DNA from: Fimbriimonadaceae bacterium
Lineage (GTDB): Bacteria > Armatimonadota > Fimbriimonadia > Fimbriimonadales > Fimbriimonadaceae
DNA length: 64,000 nt
Assembly: GCA_019187105.1 (NCBI GenBank)
Contig: JABAQM010000001.1
Span: 3,192,734 to 3,256,733, forward strand
Direction of reading: 5' to 3'
Part shown: positions 2,638-11,811 of the stretch, one piece after another
Layout of the letters: each line of letters starts with the position of its first letter
Numbering within the stretch: the stretch's first letter is position 1
Position numbers and translations under genes: made by a program
Notes under the pieces: model-generated
Told to the model about the DNA's origin: nothing
Databases searched by the model: none
Seen by the model: only the letters and a program-made list of their open reading frames with translations

Positions 2638-4500
2638 CTAGCCGCTGATCCGTCTCCACTCACCCTGCTCTAGGTTCAAGTGGTACACGCTCGGGTTATC
2701 GACGTGCTCTTCTTGGCTTCCCCTGAAGCGTATGGCCTTACCCCCTCGCAACTCGATGACCTGGTCGCGAAGGTTGGCACGATGCTCATATATTCTTGGC
2801 ACGAGGTCGCCCGTGGTTACCATTCGTTCGATTGAGTAATCGAGGGTGCTCAGTCGATAAACCGGTATCGATCCCGATCTTTGGTGAACGTATCCTAGGC
2901 CGCCAATGATCCAGATGAAATCCCCCACCAGGGTTGCAGAGTGAAAGTCAGTGGGTTCGAAGACCTCGTAAGGGTAGCCAAAGATCCTTATGGTTCCATC
3001 GGGATGCAAGACCGTTACGTCGTTATAGATGCAGAAGTCAGGGTCATACGAATCCTCGTGTTCGCCCGCGATCAGGATCGATCGTCCATCCGGCATCAGG
3101 GTAACACTTTGGCCGAATCGATCGAAGCACCAAACTTGCGGGGGGCGTGATTGCCAGGAGACGCCACAAGCCATCCTGGCTTCATCGTCGAATCGGTCTC
3201 TTGCGAGATAGGCATTGCATCCCGCATTGATCATAGCCAGCCTAAACGGTTCCGTGATGTCCTCAGGATTTGCCGTGCCTGGACGCTCGTATCGAGCTGC
3301 CATGTACTGCTCAGCAGTAACAGCCAGGAGGGCTGTATCGTTCTCATCGGGCAGCCCGACCAGCTTCCTCCGTGCGTCCCGGTCGATCTTCGCCGGATCA
3401 GCCCCAGCATTAAGGAGGAACAGAATGGTCTCGCGGTCTCTAGCGGCTTCGATGATTCCCGAGATCCCGTCACCAATTGACATGTCGGCTCCCCGATCAA
3501 GCAGGATCTGAACGATCTCCAAGTTGCCGGCTTCCACGGCGCATACGAGTGCGGGCTGATCGTGCTCATCCGTCTCGTTGGCCGAGCATCCCGCATCCAG
3601 CATTCGCAAGACGAGCGTTGCCTTCCCACTCTGGATTGCGCAGTGAAGGCATGATGGGGCTTCAGCAAATTGCTTCCGTATCGAAGCTCCTTTCTCCATC
3701 AGCGCCTTGACCATCGATTCGTCGCCGCGCCTCAGGGCGATATGCAGGCTCTTGTGTTGAACCGCATCGGTCTCGTCGAGATCAGGGTCCTTCGTCAGCT
3801 CGTGCTCGACATCAGCCAGGGAGCCCATGGCAGCGGCCCGTAGGAGCGGACTCCACTGAGCGGGCGCTTCGTCGGCGCCGCCTGCCACCAGTAGCTTCGC
3901 TACTTCGTATCTGCCGTCGCGCAGTGCGCCGACCAGCGGTACCTCGCCGTAACTGGATCTGCCATCAGGCGAGACCCCCTGTTCGAGCAGGTACTCGACC
4001 ACTTCAACTGGATCTTGTGCGGTAAGGATCGCATGGTGCATGGCGGTATAGCCATTGTCGTCCGTGTAGTGGAGATCTGCGCCGTGATTGGCGAACGCTT
4101 CGACGATCTCAAGATTGCCAGATTTCAGGGCCATCGATATCGTCGAGACCGAATAGGACTTCGGAGAAAGGCTGATCGGAGGTAACTCAAGTCCTGTCGA
4201 CTTGAAAACGTCACTAAAGTCGACGCCCCATTCCTCGTCCCCCGGAAACTCCTGAACAAAAACAAAGTTGACATCCGCCCCGGCCTCAAGCAAGGCTCGT
4301 ACGATTTTGGCGCTCGGCTGTGGGCAATCGAGGGCGACATAAAGGGCGGTCTGGTTGTTTCGGTCAAGTTCGTTTATGACGCGCTTACTGTCGGGGAGGT
4401 CTCGCAGTACCCTTGCAAGGGCATCTGCGTCGCCGATCCGCACTAGGTCATGTATAAGCTCCAGAATGCAAGATTGGCATATCGGCTCGTTTGGCAGCAA
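2638..4500 (-). CDS. ankyrin-repeat protein with C-terminal Kelch-like domain
   Basis: The protein is about 620 residues. Residues ~15-400 hold many ankyrin repeats (for example NGYTAMHHAILTAQDP, LLEQGVSPDGRSSYGE, LLDRGADMSIGDG). The last ~200 residues are different: WCFDRFGQSVTLMPDGR, HSATLVGDFIWIIGG and YRLSTLDYSIERM look like Kelch or beta-propeller blades. No signal peptide or membrane segment is seen. The frame opens upstream to 4701, but that extension is Arg-rich and runs back through the duplicated kinase sequence. A TTG at 4500 (MLPNEPICQ) is the most likely start, though its Shine-Dalgarno is poor. The likely role is protein binding; the partner is unknown. The gene lies between the two direct repeats. 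Confidence 0.75.
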   Translation of the reverse strand: MLPNEPICQSCILELIHDLVRIGDADALARVLRDLPDSKRVINELDRNNQTALYVALDCPQPSAKIVRALLEAGADVNFVFVQEFPGDEEWGVDFSDVFKSTGLELPPISLSPKSYSVSTISMALKSGNLEIVEAFANHGADLHYTDDNGYTAMHHAILTAQDPVEVVEYLLEQGVSPDGRSSYGEVPLVGALRDGRYEVAKLLVAGGADEAPAQWSPLLRAAAMGSLADVEHELTKDPDLDETDAVQHKSLHIALRRGDESMVKALMEKGASIRKQFAEAPSCLHCAIQSGKATLVLRMLDAGCSANETDEHDQPALVCAVEAGNLEIVQILLDRGADMSIGDGISGIIEAARDRETILFLLNAGADPAKIDRDARRKLVGLPDENDTALLAVTAEQYMAARYERPGTANPEDITEPFRLAMINAGCNAYLARDRFDDEARMACGVSWQSRPPQVWCFDRFGQSVTLMPDGRSILIAGEHEDSYDPDFCIYNDVTVLHPDGTIRIFGYPYEVFEPTDFHSATLVGDFIWIIGGLGYVHQRSGSIPVYRLSTLDYSIERMVTTGDLVPRIYEHRANLRDQVIELRGGKAIRFRGSQEEHVDNPSVYHLNLEQGEWRRISG

Positions 4501-4552: not shown

Positions 4553-4783
4553 CCATCCCGACCCCTCCCCTGGAAAGGGAGAACGAGCCAACGGCAGGGA
4601 ACTGTTGAGGCGAACGAGGTTGATGACTTATGGCGGACTGAAGTTAAACGGCGCCTCTTCCTCACCCATGCCGGTCCCTGTCTTGGTGCTCGTAGCTTCA
4701 CGGTTCGGAGAGCGAAACTCTGCGATCAGGTTTTCGAGGTCCGCTACCGCACAGGGCTTCGTCAGGTGAGCGTCGAAGCCGGC
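4553..4783. repeat. direct repeat copy 2 (3' end of kinase gene plus flank)
   Basis: This is the partner of the fragment at 2407-2634. It spans the C-terminal ~50 codons of the kinase (which stops at 4628-4630) and ~75 bp of downstream flank. Both copies have the same orientation and enclose the ankyrin/Kelch gene, giving the order repeat-cargo-repeat expected from single-crossover integration or unequal recombination. Confidence 0.85.
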
Positions 4784-7015
4784 TTCGAGGGCGGCGGCAA
4801 CATCCTCGTCCTGGCCGTAGCCGGTCAAAGCGATCAGTAGCCCAGCGTAGCCTTCCGGGCCGTACGCTCTGTCGCTACGCAGGCGCCTGGCGACTTCGAG
4901 ACCATCAAGACCGGGAAGGCCGATATCCAGAACCACAAGATCCGGCCGCCAGGAATGGGCGAGGCTCAACCCATCTAGCCCGTTGTGGGCCGACTTCACC
5001 GTGTACCCCTTCTTAACAAGGGCGATCGTGAACATCCTCACGAGGTCGCTGTTGTCGTCGACGATGAGGATTTGAAGGCCTTCGGCTTCTTGCTTTTGCA
5101 CAGGCTCCGGAACTGAGACAACGGCCCGTGGCGCGGACACCAGGGGAAGCTTGACGACGAACTCGCTGCCCGCTGTGGCGTTCGCCGGTGGAGAGTGGGC
5201 CTCGAGGGTGCCGCCATGGAGGACGATCAAGCGCTTGGCGAGGGAGAGGCCGACTCCCAGGCCGCCACGGGAATGATCCAGGGTGCTGTCGGCCTGGGTG
5301 AACAGGTCGAAAATGTGCGGCAGCAGATTCGGAGCGATGCCGATGCCGTTGTCGCGTACGCGTACCTGCACTTCAGCGCGGTCGCCCAGTACCTCGCAGA
5401 AAACTTCGATGCGGCCACCCTCATCGGTGTACTTAACGGCGTTGCTTAAGAGGTTGGTGAAGACCTGCTCCAGCCGGGTCGCGTCGGCATTGACCCAGGC
5501 GGCGCCCTCGGGGCAGAGATCCATCAGGAGTTCATGACGCCGCGCCTCGATCAGCGGTTGGACGGTCTGCACCGCGTTCCGCAGCACCTGGTTGGCGTCG
5601 AGGACCGCCAAGTCGATGCGGATGCGGCCGCTGACCACCCGAGAGACTTCCAGCAAGTCGTTCACCAACCGCGCCAGGTTTGCTACTTGGCGGTGGAGGA
5701 TGTCCAAGGTCTGCCGCTCGACGGCATCATCGCTGTCTTGCAACCGCAAAAGCTCCACCGCGGTTTGGATGGGGGCCAAGGGGTTGCGCAGCTCGTGGCT
5801 CAGCATTGCCAGGAACTCGTCCTTGCGTCGCGACTCGGTTGCGAGTTCCTCCGCCCGCTCGCCGATCTGCTTCTCCATCAAGGATCTCTCGGTGATGTCG
5901 AGGCACGAGCCGATGTAGCCCGCGAATTCGCCTTCCACCGAGTACCGGGGAATGCCATGATCGAGCAGCCAGCGGTATTCGCCATCGTGACGCTTCAGCC
6001 GGTACTCCATCGAGAAGGGCTCCCGGGCGTCGAACGACCTGGAATAGGTCTCGAGACACTGGTCGAAATCCTCCGGGTGGACGTTTTCGGCCCATCCGTT
6101 GCCAAGCTCCTCATCCATGGATCGTCCCACGAAATCAAGCCAGACCTTGTTAAACCAGGTGCACAGTTTGTCGGGGCCGCTCATCCAGATCAGCACGGGA
6201 GCGGCATCGGCCATCGTGCGGAAGCGCTCCTCGCTGGCCCGCAACGCTCCTTCAGCCTGCTTTCGTATGGTGACATCGCGAACCAGCCCGGTGAACATTC
6301 GCTGCGATCCAAGGTTCATCGCACTCACCGCCAAGTCCATGGGGAACTGGGAGCCGTCCTTGCGCCGTCCAACGACCTCGCGACCGATGCCGATGATCTT
6401 GGGGTTGCCGGTGCGCTTGTAGTTGTCCAGATAGGAATCGTGCTCCTGCGCGTAGGGGTCCGGCATCAGCATGGCAACGTTCTGACCCACCAACTCATCT
6501 GCGGTGTAGCCGAAGAGGCGCTCCACGGCGGGATTGGACGACTCGATGATGCCCCGTTCATCGATGGTGATGATGCCGTCGACCACGGTGTCAAAAACTG
6601 CTTGATGCCGGGCGGCAGTGGCCTGAAGCACCTCATCCTGGCGGCTAATGCGTTGCTGGGCGCGGCGCATCTGGTCGGAAACCACCGTGATCGCGAAGCC
6701 GGCTACAAAGTAGGATAATGTGCCCACGAAATACCGCAGATCGGGCTGGTCGATGATGACCGAGCCGCGCGGCTGGACGAAAAAGAAGTCAGCCGCAATC
6801 CAGCTAGCGAACACCGTGCAGACCGTCGCGGGCGTACTGGTCAGCAAGGCGACAACGGCCACGGCGACGAAGTAGGTGACGTACGGCAGGTGGTCGCCCA
6901 GCCACAGGTCGAGCCAGAGCCGCAACCCGGTTGCCACGGTTACAGCGAGAACGACTATTGCGGCATTCCGCACGGGGGCGTCACGGCGCGACGGCTTCTT
7001 CTGCGAGCCAGCCAT
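4628..7015 (-). CDS. membrane-bound hybrid sensor histidine kinase (DUF4118-PAS-PAS-HisKA-HATPase-REC)
   Basis: The protein has 795 residues from the ATG at 7015; a GTG at 7036 would add seven. The N-terminus has a KdpD-like four-helix DUF4118 region (residues ~15-105). Two PAS domains follow (GIITIDERGIIESSNPA; LIWMSGPDKLCTWFNKV), then HisKA with FLAMLSHELRNPLAPIQ (phospho-acceptor His), an HATPase with DNGIGIAPNLLPHIFDLF and GGLGVGLSLAKRL, and a receiver with LILIVDD-type strand 1, VVLDIGLPG (phospho-acceptor Asp) and LTKP. It should autophosphorylate and pass phosphate internally. No cognate output regulator is adjacent. The 3' end has been duplicated downstream. Confidence 0.92.
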   Translation of the reverse strand: MAGSQKKPSRRDAPVRNAAIVVLAVTVATGLRLWLDLWLGDHLPYVTYFVAVAVVALLTSTPATVCTVFASWIAADFFFVQPRGSVIIDQPDLRYFVGTLSYFVAGFAITVVSDQMRRAQQRISRQDEVLQATAARHQAVFDTVVDGIITIDERGIIESSNPAVERLFGYTADELVGQNVAMLMPDPYAQEHDSYLDNYKRTGNPKIIGIGREVVGRRKDGSQFPMDLAVSAMNLGSQRMFTGLVRDVTIRKQAEGALRASEERFRTMADAAPVLIWMSGPDKLCTWFNKVWLDFVGRSMDEELGNGWAENVHPEDFDQCLETYSRSFDAREPFSMEYRLKRHDGEYRWLLDHGIPRYSVEGEFAGYIGSCLDITERSLMEKQIGERAEELATESRRKDEFLAMLSHELRNPLAPIQTAVELLRLQDSDDAVERQTLDILHRQVANLARLVNDLLEVSRVVSGRIRIDLAVLDANQVLRNAVQTVQPLIEARRHELLMDLCPEGAAWVNADATRLEQVFTNLLSNAVKYTDEGGRIEVFCEVLGDRAEVQVRVRDNGIGIAPNLLPHIFDLFTQADSTLDHSRGGLGVGLSLAKRLIVLHGGTLEAHSPPANATAGSEFVVKLPLVSAPRAVVSVPEPVQKQEAEGLQILIVDDNSDLVRMFTIALVKKGYTVKSAHNGLDGLSLAHSWRPDLVVLDIGLPGLDGLEVARRLRSDRAYGPEGYAGLLIALTGYGQDEDVAAALEAGFDAHLTKPCAVADLENLIAEFRSPNREATSTKTGTGMGEEEAPFNFSPP

Positions 7016-7157
7016 GGACGATGAAAATGATAGCACAAGAAATCAAACTTGCTGAAATCAATCTAACGTCAAACTGAACGGGGTGGCCGTTCCCGCCACT
7101 TGCCGCCATTCCGAGCGGGGGGGAAGGCCGAAGAAGAATCTGAAATGCGGCCCAGTT

Positions 7158-7252: not shown

Positions 7253-8329
7253 CTACTCCTCGAACGTCACCTCATAGCTCGTTGCCGTAAAGTCGATCGA
7301 TGCCGCTCCACCGGAGAAGCCCTGCGCGTTGGTGCTGACGCGGAGATCCACCGCCGCCTCGAAGCGCTGGCCACCGCTCACGTCGCGCGTCAGGGTGACG
7401 GAGCCCGATTGGGTGGGTACCGAAAGCTCCTGACCTCCGACGACGAGCGCGTTGTTACTTTCGTTAAAGAGCGATGTGGCGACGAAGTTGTTCGTGCTGA
7501 CGCCGGCGACATGGGTTCGGAATACTCCAAGTGCGCTCACCAGCGCGCCCCCGGCTACGGCCGTGGTCGTCGTCTTGTACGAAAAGTTGAAATGGAGGGT
7601 GATTGTCATGCGCCGCGCGTTGCTGGGCACGTCGATGAAGATTCCTTCGGTCGCGTTTGCGCTTGCAAGAGCGGGAAACCCGGTAGCCAGGGAATCACAG
7701 GAGAGCCGCATGCGGCCCGACGAATCGTTGAAGGTCACCGAGGCATTGTTGAACCCGGCGCCAGACTTCGAGATATCGGAAGCGTGAAACGCGTACGGGG
7801 GATTGAAAGTTTGAGTGGCGGGGAGCGGCGGCTCCTGGGATGCCTCCAAGAGCTTGCGAAGTTGGAGACCGATCAATTCCAGGTACGTGTAATCGATCCC
7901 GTAGACGTTCCGTAGCAGGTCGCGGACCTTGTCTTTGTCGGCGCCGCCAAAGTGGTACGCGCTATCAATAACGCTTCGATTCTTCTTCAGAAGCTGCCGG
8001 ACGCGGTCCAGGCGGTCCTTCCTCTTGCTCGTCATCAGACTTTTCGCCTGCCGGATGAAGGAGCCGTAGGCGGCATTAGACTTCTCCTGGCTCTTTAAGG
8101 CTTGACGGATGGGAGCAAGCTTGTCCCAGGCGCGCTTGATCCTGGCTTGTTCTGCCTTGGACTCAGCCTTGGATTTGGCCAGCATGGCCGCGCTGCTTTT
8201 GGCCACGAGTGACTTTGCCTTGGCCACCGTCAAGCCCTTGGGAAGCCGCTTGGCGTTGATTTTGATGTCCGGTGATGCAAGCAACAGGCATGGAGTGACA
8301 AGAAGTGCGACGAAGAGTAGTTTTTTCAT
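7253..8329 (-). CDS. secreted hypothetical protein with helical N-terminal and beta-rich C-terminal region
   Basis: This is a 358-residue protein with a clear signal peptide (MKKLLFVALLVTPCLLLASP). Residues ~25-150 are Lys/Ala-rich helices, probably coiled coil. Residues ~160-358 are a beta-rich, Ser/Thr/Asn-rich domain (RRMTITLHFNFSYKTTTTA, SGSVTLTRDVSGGQRFEAAVDL). I do not recognise the family. The ATG at 8329 is chosen because the signal peptide begins there and GGGGG lies just upstream; the frame opens nine codons earlier. The gene appears monocistronic. An extracellular or periplasmic structural role is possible but not shown. Confidence 0.75.
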   Translation of the reverse strand: MKKLLFVALLVTPCLLLASPDIKINAKRLPKGLTVAKAKSLVAKSSAAMLAKSKAESKAEQARIKRAWDKLAPIRQALKSQEKSNAAYGSFIRQAKSLMTSKRKDRLDRVRQLLKKNRSVIDSAYHFGGADKDKVRDLLRNVYGIDYTYLELIGLQLRKLLEASQEPPLPATQTFNPPYAFHASDISKSGAGFNNASVTFNDSSGRMRLSCDSLATGFPALASANATEGIFIDVPSNARRMTITLHFNFSYKTTTTAVAGGALVSALGVFRTHVAGVSTNNFVATSLFNESNNALVVGGQELSVPTQSGSVTLTRDVSGGQRFEAAVDLRVSTNAQGFSGGAASIDFTATSYEVTFEE

Positions 8330-8450
8330 ATAGCCCCCTATAGAAGCGCGTCGCATATTACCATGACTTGTGGTGATTCGTCGTGTTCTCGCTGGGTTGC
8401 GACCGGAGGGAGCTGTCGAGGGGAAGGCGTCGCCTGAAGCCTGCGCTAAC

Positions 8451-8726
8451 TCATCGCGAGTTGCTGGCTTCCGCTTCCGCCTCAGCCTCCATCTTGGTGA
8501 GGCGCGTGTAATAATCGGCGAATTCGTTAAGATGGGCGAGAGCGATCTTGCCGGTTAAGATGGGGTCGTCACCGGTCACGTCCGTCGCTGGATCGCGAGT
8601 TCCATGTTCCAACTCGACCTCCATCCCTCTTCGGAATTCCTCCACATCGAATCGGCTCCAATCGATTCCTAACTGGTCACCGATCGCTTTGGCCTGTTCA
8701 GCGCTGAAGTACCTTGAGTTTGACAT
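8451..8726 (-). CDS. DUF5661 family protein
   Basis: This 91-residue cytosolic protein shows the pattern I associate with DUF5661: FSAEQAKAIGDQLGIDWSRF, then EFRRGMEVELEHGTRDP, VTGDDPILTGKIALAHL and EFADYYTRL. The conserved core is intact and the C-terminus is a Glu/Ala-rich tail. The family has no known function; members are small and widespread. The gene is divergent from the channel-like gene at 8802, separated by 75 bp that should contain both promoters. Confidence 0.75.
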   Translation of the reverse strand: MSNSRYFSAEQAKAIGDQLGIDWSRFDVEEFRRGMEVELEHGTRDPATDVTGDDPILTGKIALAHLNEFADYYTRLTKMEAEAEAEASNSR

Positions 8727-8801: not shown

Positions 8802-9158
8802 ATGCCCATGTATGAGCATCGCCAAGTCCCGCCGATCTCCAGACAAAGATTCAGGTTCCGGGTGGTCCAGCACATCACCTGGATTGGGCTCATCATCGTG
8901 CCGACGCTTGCCATCGGCATGTTGGGCTATCACCTTTTGGCCGGTCTGAGCTGGATCGACTCGCTCCTCAATGCCTCGATGATCCTAGGCGGAATGGGTC
9001 CTGTCGACCGGCTCGAAACCGACACAGCCAAGCTTTTCGCCTCTTTCTATGCCCTGTTTTCGGGCCTCGTCTTCATTGGCGTTGCCGGGCTGTTTGTTGC
9101 ACCCTTTGCCCATCGAATCTTGCACCACTTCCATTGGGAGGCAGCGGGCAACGAATAG
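8802..9158 (+). CDS. two-helix K+-channel-like membrane protein with GMGP pore loop
   Basis: This is a 118-residue membrane protein. TM1 spans ~residues 24-47 (GLIIVPTLAIGMLGYHLL). An amphipathic segment follows (SWIDSLLNASMIL), then a glycine-rich loop GGMGP (~62-66). TM2 spans ~77-102 (KLFASFYALFSGLVFIGVAG), and the tail is His-rich (HRILHHFH). The order TM1, pore helix, loop, TM2 and the 'KLFa..YALfsG' segment match two-TM potassium channels. The canonical TVGYG filter is replaced by ILGGMGP. Similar small proteins exist elsewhere and to my knowledge are not characterised. The start ATG at 8802 has a second ATG two codons on. It is probably a divergent pore protein; ion selectivity is unknown. 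Confidence 0.7.
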   Translation: MPMYEHRQVPPISRQRFRFRVVQHITWIGLIIVPTLAIGMLGYHLLAGLSWIDSLLNASMILGGMGPVDRLETDTAKLFASFYALFSGLVFIGVAGLFVAPFAHRILHHFHWEAAGNE

Positions 9159-9200: not shown

Positions 9201-9277
9201 TGGTACTCCCGACGGGATTCGAACCCGCGATCTTCGCCGTGAGAGGGCGATGTCCTAAACCGCTAGACGACGGGAGC
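9201..9277 (-). tRNA. tRNA-Glu (anticodon CTC)
   Basis: The minus strand folds as a cloverleaf. The acceptor stem is GCTCCCG/CGGGAGT (one G-U pair), the anticodon stem is TCGCC/GGCGA with loop CTCTCAC (anticodon CTC), and the T arm contains GGTTCGAATCC. Discriminator A and CCA are encoded (9201-9204). All stems are complete, so the gene should be functional. It lies between the channel-like gene and the penicillin acylase gene. Confidence 0.93.
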
Positions 9278-9322: not shown

Positions 9323-11581
9323 CTAGCGTGGGCGCGGCGGGAACGTCAACCGCGAGTGCATCGGCTTGTAGCCCCACGCTCGGGCCAGCGCCGCCTGGCT
9401 CTTGGCATGGGGACCCGATTCGGCCACGCCGGGAGGCAGGACGTTGCGCCCGCGCAAGGTCGCGCCGAGCTCGACAATCTGGATATAGCTGCCGCGGTTC
9501 GAATAGGGAATCGGATCCTCGCCGGTGACCGGGATGGAAGGCGGATTCCAGCCCCACAGGGAGGGCTCAGGACCAAACCGTTCGGTGAGCCGGGCGACCG
9601 CTTTCTCGAACGCAGCCCGGACGAGCTCGGTATTCGTTCTTTTGCCGCGGTAGCCGACCTTGGTCTTGCCCTGCAGGGCATTCAGCATCAGCGACGGCTG
9701 GGCCGCCTGGTTAAAGAGGTCCATCGAGAGCATGTTGCCGGTCGTCGCAAGGAAGAGTTCTTCGCGCACGGCCTGCACCATCTCGCGATAAAGCCGTTCG
9801 GAAATCGAGCCGCCGAGGGCCATGCCGTCATGCGCCAGCAAATACGGGGCGGCCTGTTTGGCCAGGTCGCCGGTTGGGATGTAACCGGTCATAGCCTCCC
9901 GGATAAAGGGCATCAAAAACGCGGCATCGTCGTCCGCCCGGGCGATGCCCCAGATCGCCATTTCGAGGTCAGGCACGCCCAGTTTCGTCGCTTTGAGACG
10001 ATCGAGGAGGATGGCGTTGCGAAAGATCGCGCCCCACACCGGCGTGTCGCCGTTCTCCCACCACGGGGTCGGCTTGTTGTTCCAGTTGGCGATCAGGCCC
10101 GATTTCGGGTTGACGACCGTAACCAGTGACGCGGCATCGCGGGTGGCGGTCCAGTCATGTTCGGGATCGCCGGGAGTAGGGAAGCGTGGATCCACTTTCG
10201 GCGAACGAACGGGTGTAATGCCGCAATATCGCCAACCGATGTCGCCGGTGCGCGTCGCCCAAAAGAAGTTGAAGCCGACCGGCAGTCCGGAGGTGGTTTT
10301 CAGGACATCGCGCGTCGTCTTGACGGCCGGGATCCCGAGAATCGACTCGAATCCGAGCAGCTCCCGTCCCCACCAGGTCGCGGATCGCGAGAAGTAGGAC
10401 TTGGTCGAGTTGCTCCGCAGCAGAACCGGCCCGTAGTGGGTGCGCAGCTGCTCGACTTTCTGGGAATCCGCGCCTTTGACCTTAACCTCGAAGGTGATCC
10501 GCTCGAGCGGTCGCCTCTCCTTGCCATAGAGATAGCCATCGCCATCCATCGGGGAGACGAAGATGTCTGCGGAGTCGAGAACGCCGGTTGTGAGCCCCCA
10601 GGCTATGTCGTTGTTGTGGCCGACGACCACGCCGGGCACTCCCGGAACGTCCATGCCGACAACGAAGCGATCGCCGACCGTTAGCGAGCACTCGTGGATG
10701 ATGCTGGGGTTGGAAAAGCCCATCTGGGGCCCGCTGAGCAGGAGGGGAAAGCCGAGCTTGGACTTCTCCTTGCCCACCACGATCGCGTAGCTGCCGGTGT
10801 GAAAGGGCGCGGCGACCTGTTCCGCAACCGCAAGCTCCTCTTCCCGCAGGGCCAGCGACAAGGCGGGAGCCAGTTCGAGAAGGTTCGGCTTTGGCACCGC
10901 CTTGACGTGCTCTTCCAGGACTTTTCGTCCCTGGCCGCCGAAAATGGCAGGGAAGGGCGTGGTGTCGGTGGTTGTCGGTATGGAGCGCTTGTCGGCACGA
11001 AAGAGAAAGTCGTCCACGACATCGAGAACCCGTTCTTGGCCGACCTTGCCCACCATGTACTGGTAGAAGGCGAGATTTCGAAGTTCGCCCGCGCCTCCTC
11101 CTCCGAAGATCTGGGCCATCTGGATCGCGATCGCCGCCGAGTCGATTTCGGTCCAAGGTTCGGGATCGAAGCCGTTGTCGGCGTAGCCCTTGGGGAGCTT
11201 TTCGCCAGACTTTGCCTCCCCGATATAACGATTCACACCTCGCGCATAGGCTCTGAACGCGTCGCGGCCGATCGCGCTCATACCGGCGATCTGATTAGCG
11301 ATTTCCTCGTTGGTATAACCGAGCAGCTTGCGGTCGCGGTCGGCCTTAGCGAAGCTCGCGCCGAAGACCTCGGCCATCTTGCCCAGCGCGACCCGCCGAC
11401 TGGTTTCCAATTGCCAAAGACGGTCCTGGGCCACGGCGTAGCCCTGGGTTTCGTAGGCCTCCGCCCACGTGCTTGCCAGAATATGGGGCACGCCGAACGA
11501 GTCCCGTTCGATCGTCTGGGGCGCCTGCAAAGCCGTTTGCGCGATGACTGAGGCAGCTAAAAAGACGATAGGCGTGGTCAC
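9323..11581 (-). CDS. penicillin acylase family N-terminal nucleophile hydrolase, secreted
   Basis: The protein has 752 residues from a GTG at 11581. It begins with a hydrophobic signal (TTPIVFLAASVIAQTALQA) and the A-chain motifs DSFGVPHILASTWAEA and GYAVAQDRLWQLE. Autocatalytic cleavage would fall before Ser264 in HTGSYAIVVG, the catalytic N-terminal serine of the B chain. HNNDIAWGLTTG, a conserved B-chain segment, follows. The length fits the family (about 700-850). Members cleave amides such as beta-lactam side chains, acyl-homoserine lactones or cyclic lipopeptides; the substrate here cannot be read from sequence. The frame opens to 11698 but that extension overlaps another gene and has no signal. 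A perfect inverted repeat covers the proposed start. Confidence 0.88.
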   Translation of the reverse strand: MTTPIVFLAASVIAQTALQAPQTIERDSFGVPHILASTWAEAYETQGYAVAQDRLWQLETSRRVALGKMAEVFGASFAKADRDRKLLGYTNEEIANQIAGMSAIGRDAFRAYARGVNRYIGEAKSGEKLPKGYADNGFDPEPWTEIDSAAIAIQMAQIFGGGGAGELRNLAFYQYMVGKVGQERVLDVVDDFLFRADKRSIPTTTDTTPFPAIFGGQGRKVLEEHVKAVPKPNLLELAPALSLALREEELAVAEQVAAPFHTGSYAIVVGKEKSKLGFPLLLSGPQMGFSNPSIIHECSLTVGDRFVVGMDVPGVPGVVVGHNNDIAWGLTTGVLDSADIFVSPMDGDGYLYGKERRPLERITFEVKVKGADSQKVEQLRTHYGPVLLRSNSTKSYFSRSATWWGRELLGFESILGIPAVKTTRDVLKTTSGLPVGFNFFWATRTGDIGWRYCGITPVRSPKVDPRFPTPGDPEHDWTATRDAASLVTVVNPKSGLIANWNNKPTPWWENGDTPVWGAIFRNAILLDRLKATKLGVPDLEMAIWGIARADDDAAFLMPFIREAMTGYIPTGDLAKQAAPYLLAHDGMALGGSISERLYREMVQAVREELFLATTGNMLSMDLFNQAAQPSLMLNALQGKTKVGYRGKRTNTELVRAAFEKAVARLTERFGPEPSLWGWNPPSIPVTGEDPIPYSNRGSYIQIVELGATLRGRNVLPPGVAESGPHAKSQAALARAWGYKPMHSRLTFPPRPR

Positions 11582-11590
11582 ACGCCTATC
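11567..11590. promoter_or_regulatory. perfect 10-bp inverted repeat over the penicillin acylase start
   Basis: Arms GATAGGCGTG (11567-11576) and CACGCCTATC (11581-11590) are separated by GTCA. The proposed GTG start codon (11579-11581) falls in the spacer and at the first base of the upstream arm. As RNA the hairpin would cover the start codon; as DNA it would be a symmetric operator. Confidence 0.45.
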
Positions 11591-11622
11591 TTGTCCGAAT
11601 TCGGTTGGAGAGAGTTTATGGG

Positions 11623-11811
11623 CTAGGGCAGGCTTCGACCGCCGCCTCCAAGGCTCTTCTTGCCGAGGATTAGCCATGCTACGTACCCAAGGCCACAAAG
11701 GAGCGCGATCGGTATGACGAGGGCCACCAAACTCTTGATCAGCGAGATCGCGATCCCAAAGGCAAAGAACGCCACAATCGCAAGCACGACGATTTTCGCA
11801 AAGTTGGTCAT
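11623..11811 (-). CDS. small two-helix membrane protein
   Basis: This 62-residue protein reads MTNFAKIVVLAIVAFFAFG, then two hydrophobic helices (~residues 5-22 and ~28-52) and a tail KKSLGGGGRSLP. No family is recognised. The start at 11811 places the first helix at the N-terminus; the frame opens to 11883 but the extension is hydrophilic and unlikely. The gene is 42 bp upstream of the penicillin acylase start on the same strand and may be its operon partner. The function is unknown. Confidence 0.55.
   Translation of the reverse strand: MTNFAKIVVLAIVAFFAFGIAISLIKSLVALVIPIALLCGLGYVAWLILGKKSLGGGGRSLP

Follow-up and report, generated by a model that had tools for sequence, protein, structure and literature searches.

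Introduction

Few motifs in biology are as strongly conserved as the filters of K+ channels. In the signature TVGYG, the threonine hydroxyl makes the innermost K+ site and the aromatic residue braces the filter from behind. In NaK, a non-selective two-transmembrane (2TM) channel of Bacillus cereus, the filter TVGDGN retains, of the four ion sites, only S3 and S4 and passes Na+ and K+ non-selectively, and the sequence TVGYGD restores selectivity (PMC9822992). NirBac1.1 and NirBac1.2, which also have non-canonical filters, are non-selective by flux assays (PMC4607889). TRPV1, another non-selective cation channel, carries the filter GMGD (PMC12749864). The pH sensors of KcsA are H25 and E118 (PMC5669632).

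A small gene in the bacterial DNA analyzed here (64,000 nucleotides, hereafter the window) encodes a protein with the letters G-M-G-P at its filter. A preliminary description, made from the sequence, had read it as a two-helix channel-like protein and had suggested a conserved family that lost or changed K+ selectivity. This family is a natural experiment on the making and losing of selectivity, in which the pore fold is kept and another four-residue filter is fixed across more than ten phyla.

Results

The window gene and its surroundings

The open reading frame at 8802-9158 (plus strand) encodes 118 residues containing ...WIDSLLNASMILGGMGPVDRLETDTAKLFASFYALFSG..., with ILGGMGP in place of TVGYG, exactly as first described. 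It is a real protein-coding gene. In comparisons with four relatives (60-73% amino acid identity) the nucleotide differences are concentrated at codon position 3; against the relative L001, differences at positions 1, 2 and 3 number 25, 22 and 54, and a synonymous codon is swapped at 39 of the 81 identical residues. This codon-position pattern, together with conservation across phyla, rules out a chance reading frame. Translation probably starts at the in-frame ATG at 8808 (M3) rather than at 8802, because family members nearly always begin MYEHR, with M at this column in 93 of 97 members. The gene and the parts of its product are as follows.

8802..9158, plus strand: GMGP channel-like protein reading frame, 118 residues as read, probable start ATG 8808
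8841..8942, plus strand: N-terminal amphipathic part and TM1, residues 14-47 (AlphaFold2 helix 14-47, hydropathy, conservation)
8952..8987, plus strand: pore helix WIDSLLNASMIL, residues 51-62 (AlphaFold2 helix 51-62; ungapped against the pore helix of NaK and RCK channels)
8988..9008, plus strand: filter loop GGMGPVD, residues 63-69 (alignments with NaK and RCK channels)
9021..9149, plus strand: TM2 and cytoplasmic extension, residues 74-116 (AlphaFold2 helix 74-116; hinge-like G88, P101)
9111..9134, plus strand: HRILHHFH, residues 104-111 (near-invariant H104, R105, H108 and H111 on one helix face)

None of the following neighbors is a plausible partner of the GMGP protein.

4628-7036, minus strand: hybrid histidine kinase, upstream, with a KdpD-type DUF4118 membrane domain, PAS-PAS and a receiver domain
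8451-8726, minus strand: DUF5661 protein, on one flank of the GMGP gene
9201-9277, minus strand: tRNA-Glu(CTC), on the other flank
9323-11698, minus strand: penicillin amidase, beyond the tRNA

A 367-residue protein at 7253-8356 (minus strand) has a signal-like N-terminus and no Pfam match.

Homology and fold

Taken alone, the window protein lacks any substantial match in Pfam, NCBIfam or PHROGs, and no match to Pfam Ion_trans_2 (PF07885, curated cut-off 22.5 bits) is listed for it. Pfam matches to PetG, SieB and CbtB were set aside as weak (at most 12.6 bits for the window protein) and scattered over short stretches. A single-sequence search of the PDB returned 24 weak matches (E 0.017-0.7), all of them NaK, NaK-derived or similarly named channel or transporter entries. 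A profile of 46 relatives matches NaK in the PDB with an E-value of about 1e-4, followed by TASK2 and MthK, and its sole non-channel match is one TenA chain (E 0.65). Ion_trans_2 matches 25 of these 46 members weakly (best E 8.8e-5). In genome searches the family profile reaches K+ channel pores with E-values of 1e-4 to 1e-8, in long reading frames mostly of about 340-410 residues, and hhalign comparison of the family with 31 RCK-linked K+ channel pores gives a probability of 98.4% (E 5.6e-15). These matches amount to significant pore-domain sequence homology to the tetrameric pore-loop (2TM) cation channel superfamily.

An AlphaFold2 monomer model computed with the family alignment (pLDDT 92.9, pTM 0.81) has helices at residues 14-47 (TM1), 51-62 (pore helix) and 74-116 (TM2). 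This is the order of TM1, pore-helix-like segment, glycine loop and TM2 that had been proposed, and a fold without a re-entrant pore-loop helix, which had been named as a refutation, is contradicted by the separate pore helix and loop. All 50 matches listed by Foldseek against the PDB are NaK structures (probability 1.00), with TM-scores of 0.50-0.57 by query length and best rmsd values of 1.8-2.1 Å over 70-77 columns; their E-values are only 0.03-0.09, for which the short length and helical make-up of the protein probably account. Both the model and its match to NaK show a pore helix and filter loop between TM1 and TM2, the topology of the superfamily. Against viral models, Foldseek ranks pithovirus and related proteins highest (TMq 0.60-0.74), several of them named potassium channel.

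All meaningful sequence and fold matches are therefore to pore-loop channels, which upholds the suggestion of a conserved channel-like family and leaves no place for the other refutation foreseen, membership in a known non-channel family. The GMGP protein belongs to the 2TM pore-loop channels by fold and homology and probably works like one. Its signature is not that of a K+ channel, and it is not a member of the NaK, NirBac or RCK families. No description of the family was found in Pfam, NCBIfam or the open literature (subscription journals lay outside the search), and the family is large and apparently unnamed.

No TrkA-N/RCK domain is present in the window protein, and TrkA is not among the recurrent families in 110 immediate neighbor genes of its relatives. 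A cytoplasmic Kir (IRK) domain likewise gave no Pfam match in this protein of 118 residues, whose TM2 helix ends at residue 116. The earlier statement that a regulatory domain is lacking therefore holds for domains, but it overlooked a near-invariant HRxLHxxH at the end of TM2 (see below).

Filter sequence

Two alignments, one with NaK (HMMER) and one made jointly with RCK channels (MAFFT), place G64-M65-G66-P67-V68 at the position of the K+ channel T-V-G-Y-G. The pore helix is ungapped in both alignments, the GMGP protein has one residue fewer after the filter, and the predicted helix boundary at residue 62 fits this register. The alternative given by hhalign has a gap of two residues ahead of the loop and aligns GMGP with GYNE; we consider this register less likely, and because it shifts the filter by two residues the residue-by-residue reading is not fully settled.

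The filter letters are strongly conserved among family members (G64 in 128 of 131, M65 in 125 of 131, G66 in 128 of 130 and P67 in 128 of 131), and the K+ signature TxG[YF]G occurs in none of the 131 aligned. The NaK-type filter TVGDGN is also absent, the same columns reading GMGPVD. Loci from L082 on, found mostly by profile, were counted apart, since the peptide MILGGMGP had contributed to finding the first 80. GMGP is present in 42 of these 51 rows, and the rest read GEGP, GAGP, GVGP or GLGI, or are more diverged or broken. Two loci form a divergent sister group that has neither GMGP nor TVGYG and keeps a C-terminal HRxLHxWH.

L113, 1498-1857, plus strand: sister-group member in a record labelled Proteus mirabilis
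L185, around 3001-3225, plus strand: sister-group member in a proteobacterial genome

The filter position of this pair reads MIGTQNL or MLSGQPV. The RCK-type K+ channels recovered by the profile (L087-L101, L129-L153, L180-L182) often have no second filter glycine, with natural variants such as TVGFRE, TVGYNE, TVGYKE, TVGYEV and TVGITE, and the filter of L091 reads TLNLSQP.

Conserved residues outside the filter

Outside the filter, near-invariance extends to E5, R20, G39, G42, Y43, K77, F79, G88, P101, H104, R105, H108 and H111, with R20, G39, G42 and Y43, of the region of residues 14-47, invariant or nearly so. The hinge-position G88 is found in 128 of 131 members and P101 in 130 of 131. At the C-terminal end of TM2, HRxLHxxH is almost invariant (H104, 128/131; R105, 129/131; H108, 129/130; H111, 123/129); the motif is missing in L177 and L184.

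In NaK and KcsA the N-terminus is established to lie inside, an arrangement that to our knowledge is common to all relatives of known topology. If it holds here, H104, H108 and H111 would be located at the cytoplasmic end of TM2. The position of the conserved titratable or charged residues H104, H108, H111, R105, R20 and E5 fits KcsA-like pH sensing. We propose, purely by analogy, that HRxLHxxH is a putative proton or metal sensor at the inner gate, because KcsA senses protons in the same region.

Distribution of the family

At least 540 genome stretches encode relatives, and the best 80 of these share 51-72% identity. The family spans more than ten phyla, in agreement with the earlier remark that similar small proteins occur in other phyla, and a profile search of the kind then called for recovers members in many phyla. 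In the bacterial family of the window, 8 of 85 genomes have a full family member; the corresponding counts are 16 of 195, 6 of 201, 27 of 198 and 2 of 299 genomes in the phyla of Haloferula, an Anaerolineales MAG, a Flavobacteriales MAG and a Rhodanobacteraceae MAG, respectively, with a few of these copies broken or degenerate. Record titles, many of them of MAGs and some unreliable, add Planctomycetota, Acidobacteriota, Gemmatimonadota, Myxococcota, Ignavibacteriota, Zixibacteria, WOR-3 and candidate phyla. Archaeal membership by way of L001, titled 'Methanoregulaceae archaeon SJ84', was rejected, as the genome matches one from the bacterial family to which the window belongs and the title is probably wrong.

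A tree that includes RCK pores (115 columns, many inner forks open) unites the GMGP family in one clade apart from the TVGYG channels with a support of 100/100, and rows of different phyla interleave inside this clade. No gene family occurs in more than 3 of the 110 immediate neighbor genes scanned. A link to K+ operons was considered and dropped; kdpDE is a neighbor once (L045), and the other members of that cluster, kinases in L052 and L055, align too poorly (28-32% over parts) to establish one. Because occurrence is patchy within taxa, phyla are interleaved and the neighborhood is not fixed, these results point to a self-sufficient gene that has spread horizontally.

Four plasmid records match the family, including a Thioclava plasmid copy annotated 'hypothetical protein'. 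Searches of PHROGs and of INPHARED phages gave no match. Two collinear phage-like contigs from IMG/VR (about 77% nucleotide identity) carry the gene at the same place.

L183, 5016-5405, plus strand: family copy on the Thioclava plasmid
L192, 2500-2859, plus strand: phage-contig GMGP gene, full length (119 residues), near a thymidylate synthase gene
L190, 3947-4237, plus strand: phage-contig GMGP gene, N-terminally frame-shifted, collinear with L192

On the Thioclava plasmid, a mechanosensitive-channel gene directly follows the GMGP gene and a gene for a patatin-like phospholipase precedes it.

A search for Ion_trans_2 proteins above the cut-off found nothing in the window's own genome, which is 99.6% complete, and was positive in 11 of 14 control genomes. 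Apart from the GMGP protein, this genome may therefore have no pore-loop channel of this type.

Discussion

Computation establishes the family, its homology to pore-loop channels, its fold and the conservation of its motifs; from these features we infer a tetramer, conductance, selectivity, gating and a physiological role. With moderate confidence we propose a minimal tetrameric cation-permeable pore that has lost K+ selectivity, much like NaK or NirBac, and is gated by protonation of, or metal binding to, a histidine ring. The gene product would be one subunit of a homotetramer, with TM1 and TM2 lining the central pore and the pore helix aiming the glycine loop G-M-G-P-V into it. Compared with TVGYG, GMGPV is without the threonine, the aromatic residue and the second glycine, and an ordered four-site K+ filter is therefore probably not formed. 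Because GMGPV departs further from TVGYG than the NaK filter does, a non-K+-selective pore is predicted, through which small monovalent cations would pass with little or no preference for K+, as in NaK and NirBac. Opening would probably be controlled at the inner end of TM2. There, Gly88 as the hinge, Pro101 and as many as twelve histidines in a ring (H104, H108 and H111 from each of four subunits) may, together with R105, R20 and E5, sense cytoplasmic pH or bound metal; the pH response would resemble that mediated by H25 and E118 in KcsA. Such a protein could serve as a stand-alone regulated leak or relief valve for cations.

Some observations count against this proposal. GMGP is missing from a few members and the histidine motif from L177 and L184, Foldseek gives E-values of only 0.03-0.09 and TM-scores to NaK of 0.50-0.57, and hhalign sets the filter in another register. 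The strongest doubt comes from the strict conservation of G-M-G-P in different phyla, which suggests a particular chemistry under selection and not a mere loss of selectivity. Such a loss by itself would not have kept the same four letters in so many lineages, and the loop may therefore serve a new selectivity or a structural purpose. The pore might, for example, be selective for a species other than K+, such as protons, ammonium, Li+, a divalent ion or a soft metal (for instance Cu+ at Met65/His), with G-M-G-P as a new filter. The near invariance of G64-M65-G66-P67 is in keeping with such a filter, M60, M65 and the three conserved histidines are possible metal or proton ligands, and TRPV1 has the filter GMGD (PMC12749864). 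However, metal-homeostasis genes or other consistent neighbors are absent among the 110 neighbor genes scanned, Met65 in the favored register replaces the filter valine and would point its side chain away from the pore, and the TRPV1 resemblance extends over a few letters; we regard this explanation as unlikely. It also seems rather unlikely that the pore-loop fold has been kept without conduction, in a membrane protein with a structural or regulatory task or in a subunit that associates with another channel. In favor of this are the loss of the K+ signature, the shortness of the protein, its lack of a ligand domain and the finding that a Y-to-A change in the GYGD filter gives expressed but non-conducting K+ channels (PMC2853561). 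On the other hand, conservation is among the highest in the pore helix, the filter loop and the hinge glycine, for which a dead pore would have no use. Furthermore, no partner gene travels with the GMGP gene, and its own genome offers no other Ion_trans_2 protein above the cut-off for it to join.

Retention of K+ selectivity through an unorthodox filter appears highly improbable. In its favor, the protein is related to K+ channels, the second filter glycine is already gone from RCK-linked channels of the same phyla (TVGFRE, TVGYNE, TVGYKE), and the genome has no other recognizable K+ channel of this type, but threonine, aromatic residue and second glycine are replaced in nearly all members, and NaK and NirBac, which also deviate from TxGYG, are non-selective (PMC9822992, PMC4607889). 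A more speculative proposal, which we hold to be doubtful, is that GMGP proteins constitute a separate class of minimal channels with a filter chemistry of their own (for protons, a metal or another non-K+ cation) and an inner histidine-ring gate responding to cytoplasmic pH or metal, spread horizontally among bacteria and present in some phages.

With about 115 residues, the protein is of a size that suits crystallography, NMR and complete mutational scans. It may be the sole pore-loop channel of its type in some bacteria and is also carried by phages.

The proposed non-selective pore can be set beside several described channels. The best sequence and fold match is NaK (PDB 2ahy, 3e83 and engineered NaK-CNG pores), which shares the minimal 2TM module of about 110 residues, the order TM1, pore helix, filter, TM2, a hinge glycine and a deviating filter. 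NaK nevertheless retains Thr-Val-Gly and the last glycine (TVGDGN), whereas the GMGP proteins have G-M-G-P-V in a loop one residue shorter, and their cytoplasmic HRxLHxxH lies outside the part that aligns with NaK. The Kir-type NirBac proteins (PMC4607889) are likewise prokaryotic 2TM pore-loop proteins whose filters depart from TxGYG. However, they have a Kir domain on the cytoplasmic side, are small in number (Anaeromyxobacter, Gemmatimonas) and vary in their filters. The GMGP proteins, by contrast, occur in many phyla with a single near-invariant filter and without any added domain. RCK-linked prokaryotic K+ channels (Ion_trans_2 plus TrkA-N; MthK-like) have a homologous pore with the landmarks GYH...D and GK.F in common, but they are mostly about 340-410 residues long with TVG(Y/F) filters, and the GMGP proteins form a separate clade.

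The filters GMGD of TRPV1 and GMGP have the letters G-M-G in common. TRPV1 is, however, a 6TM channel, and in the favored register GMGP does not occupy the same filter positions; the likeness is likely a coincidence or convergence, and kinship with TRPV1 is unsupported beyond the letters. Kcv-type channels are K+ channels of eukaryotic viruses. As minimal pore-only proteins, the GMGP proteins resemble these viral channels, and the fold match to the Kcv-like protein of pithovirus LCPAC304 (A0A481Z868) has a TMq of 0.67 with 39% identity.
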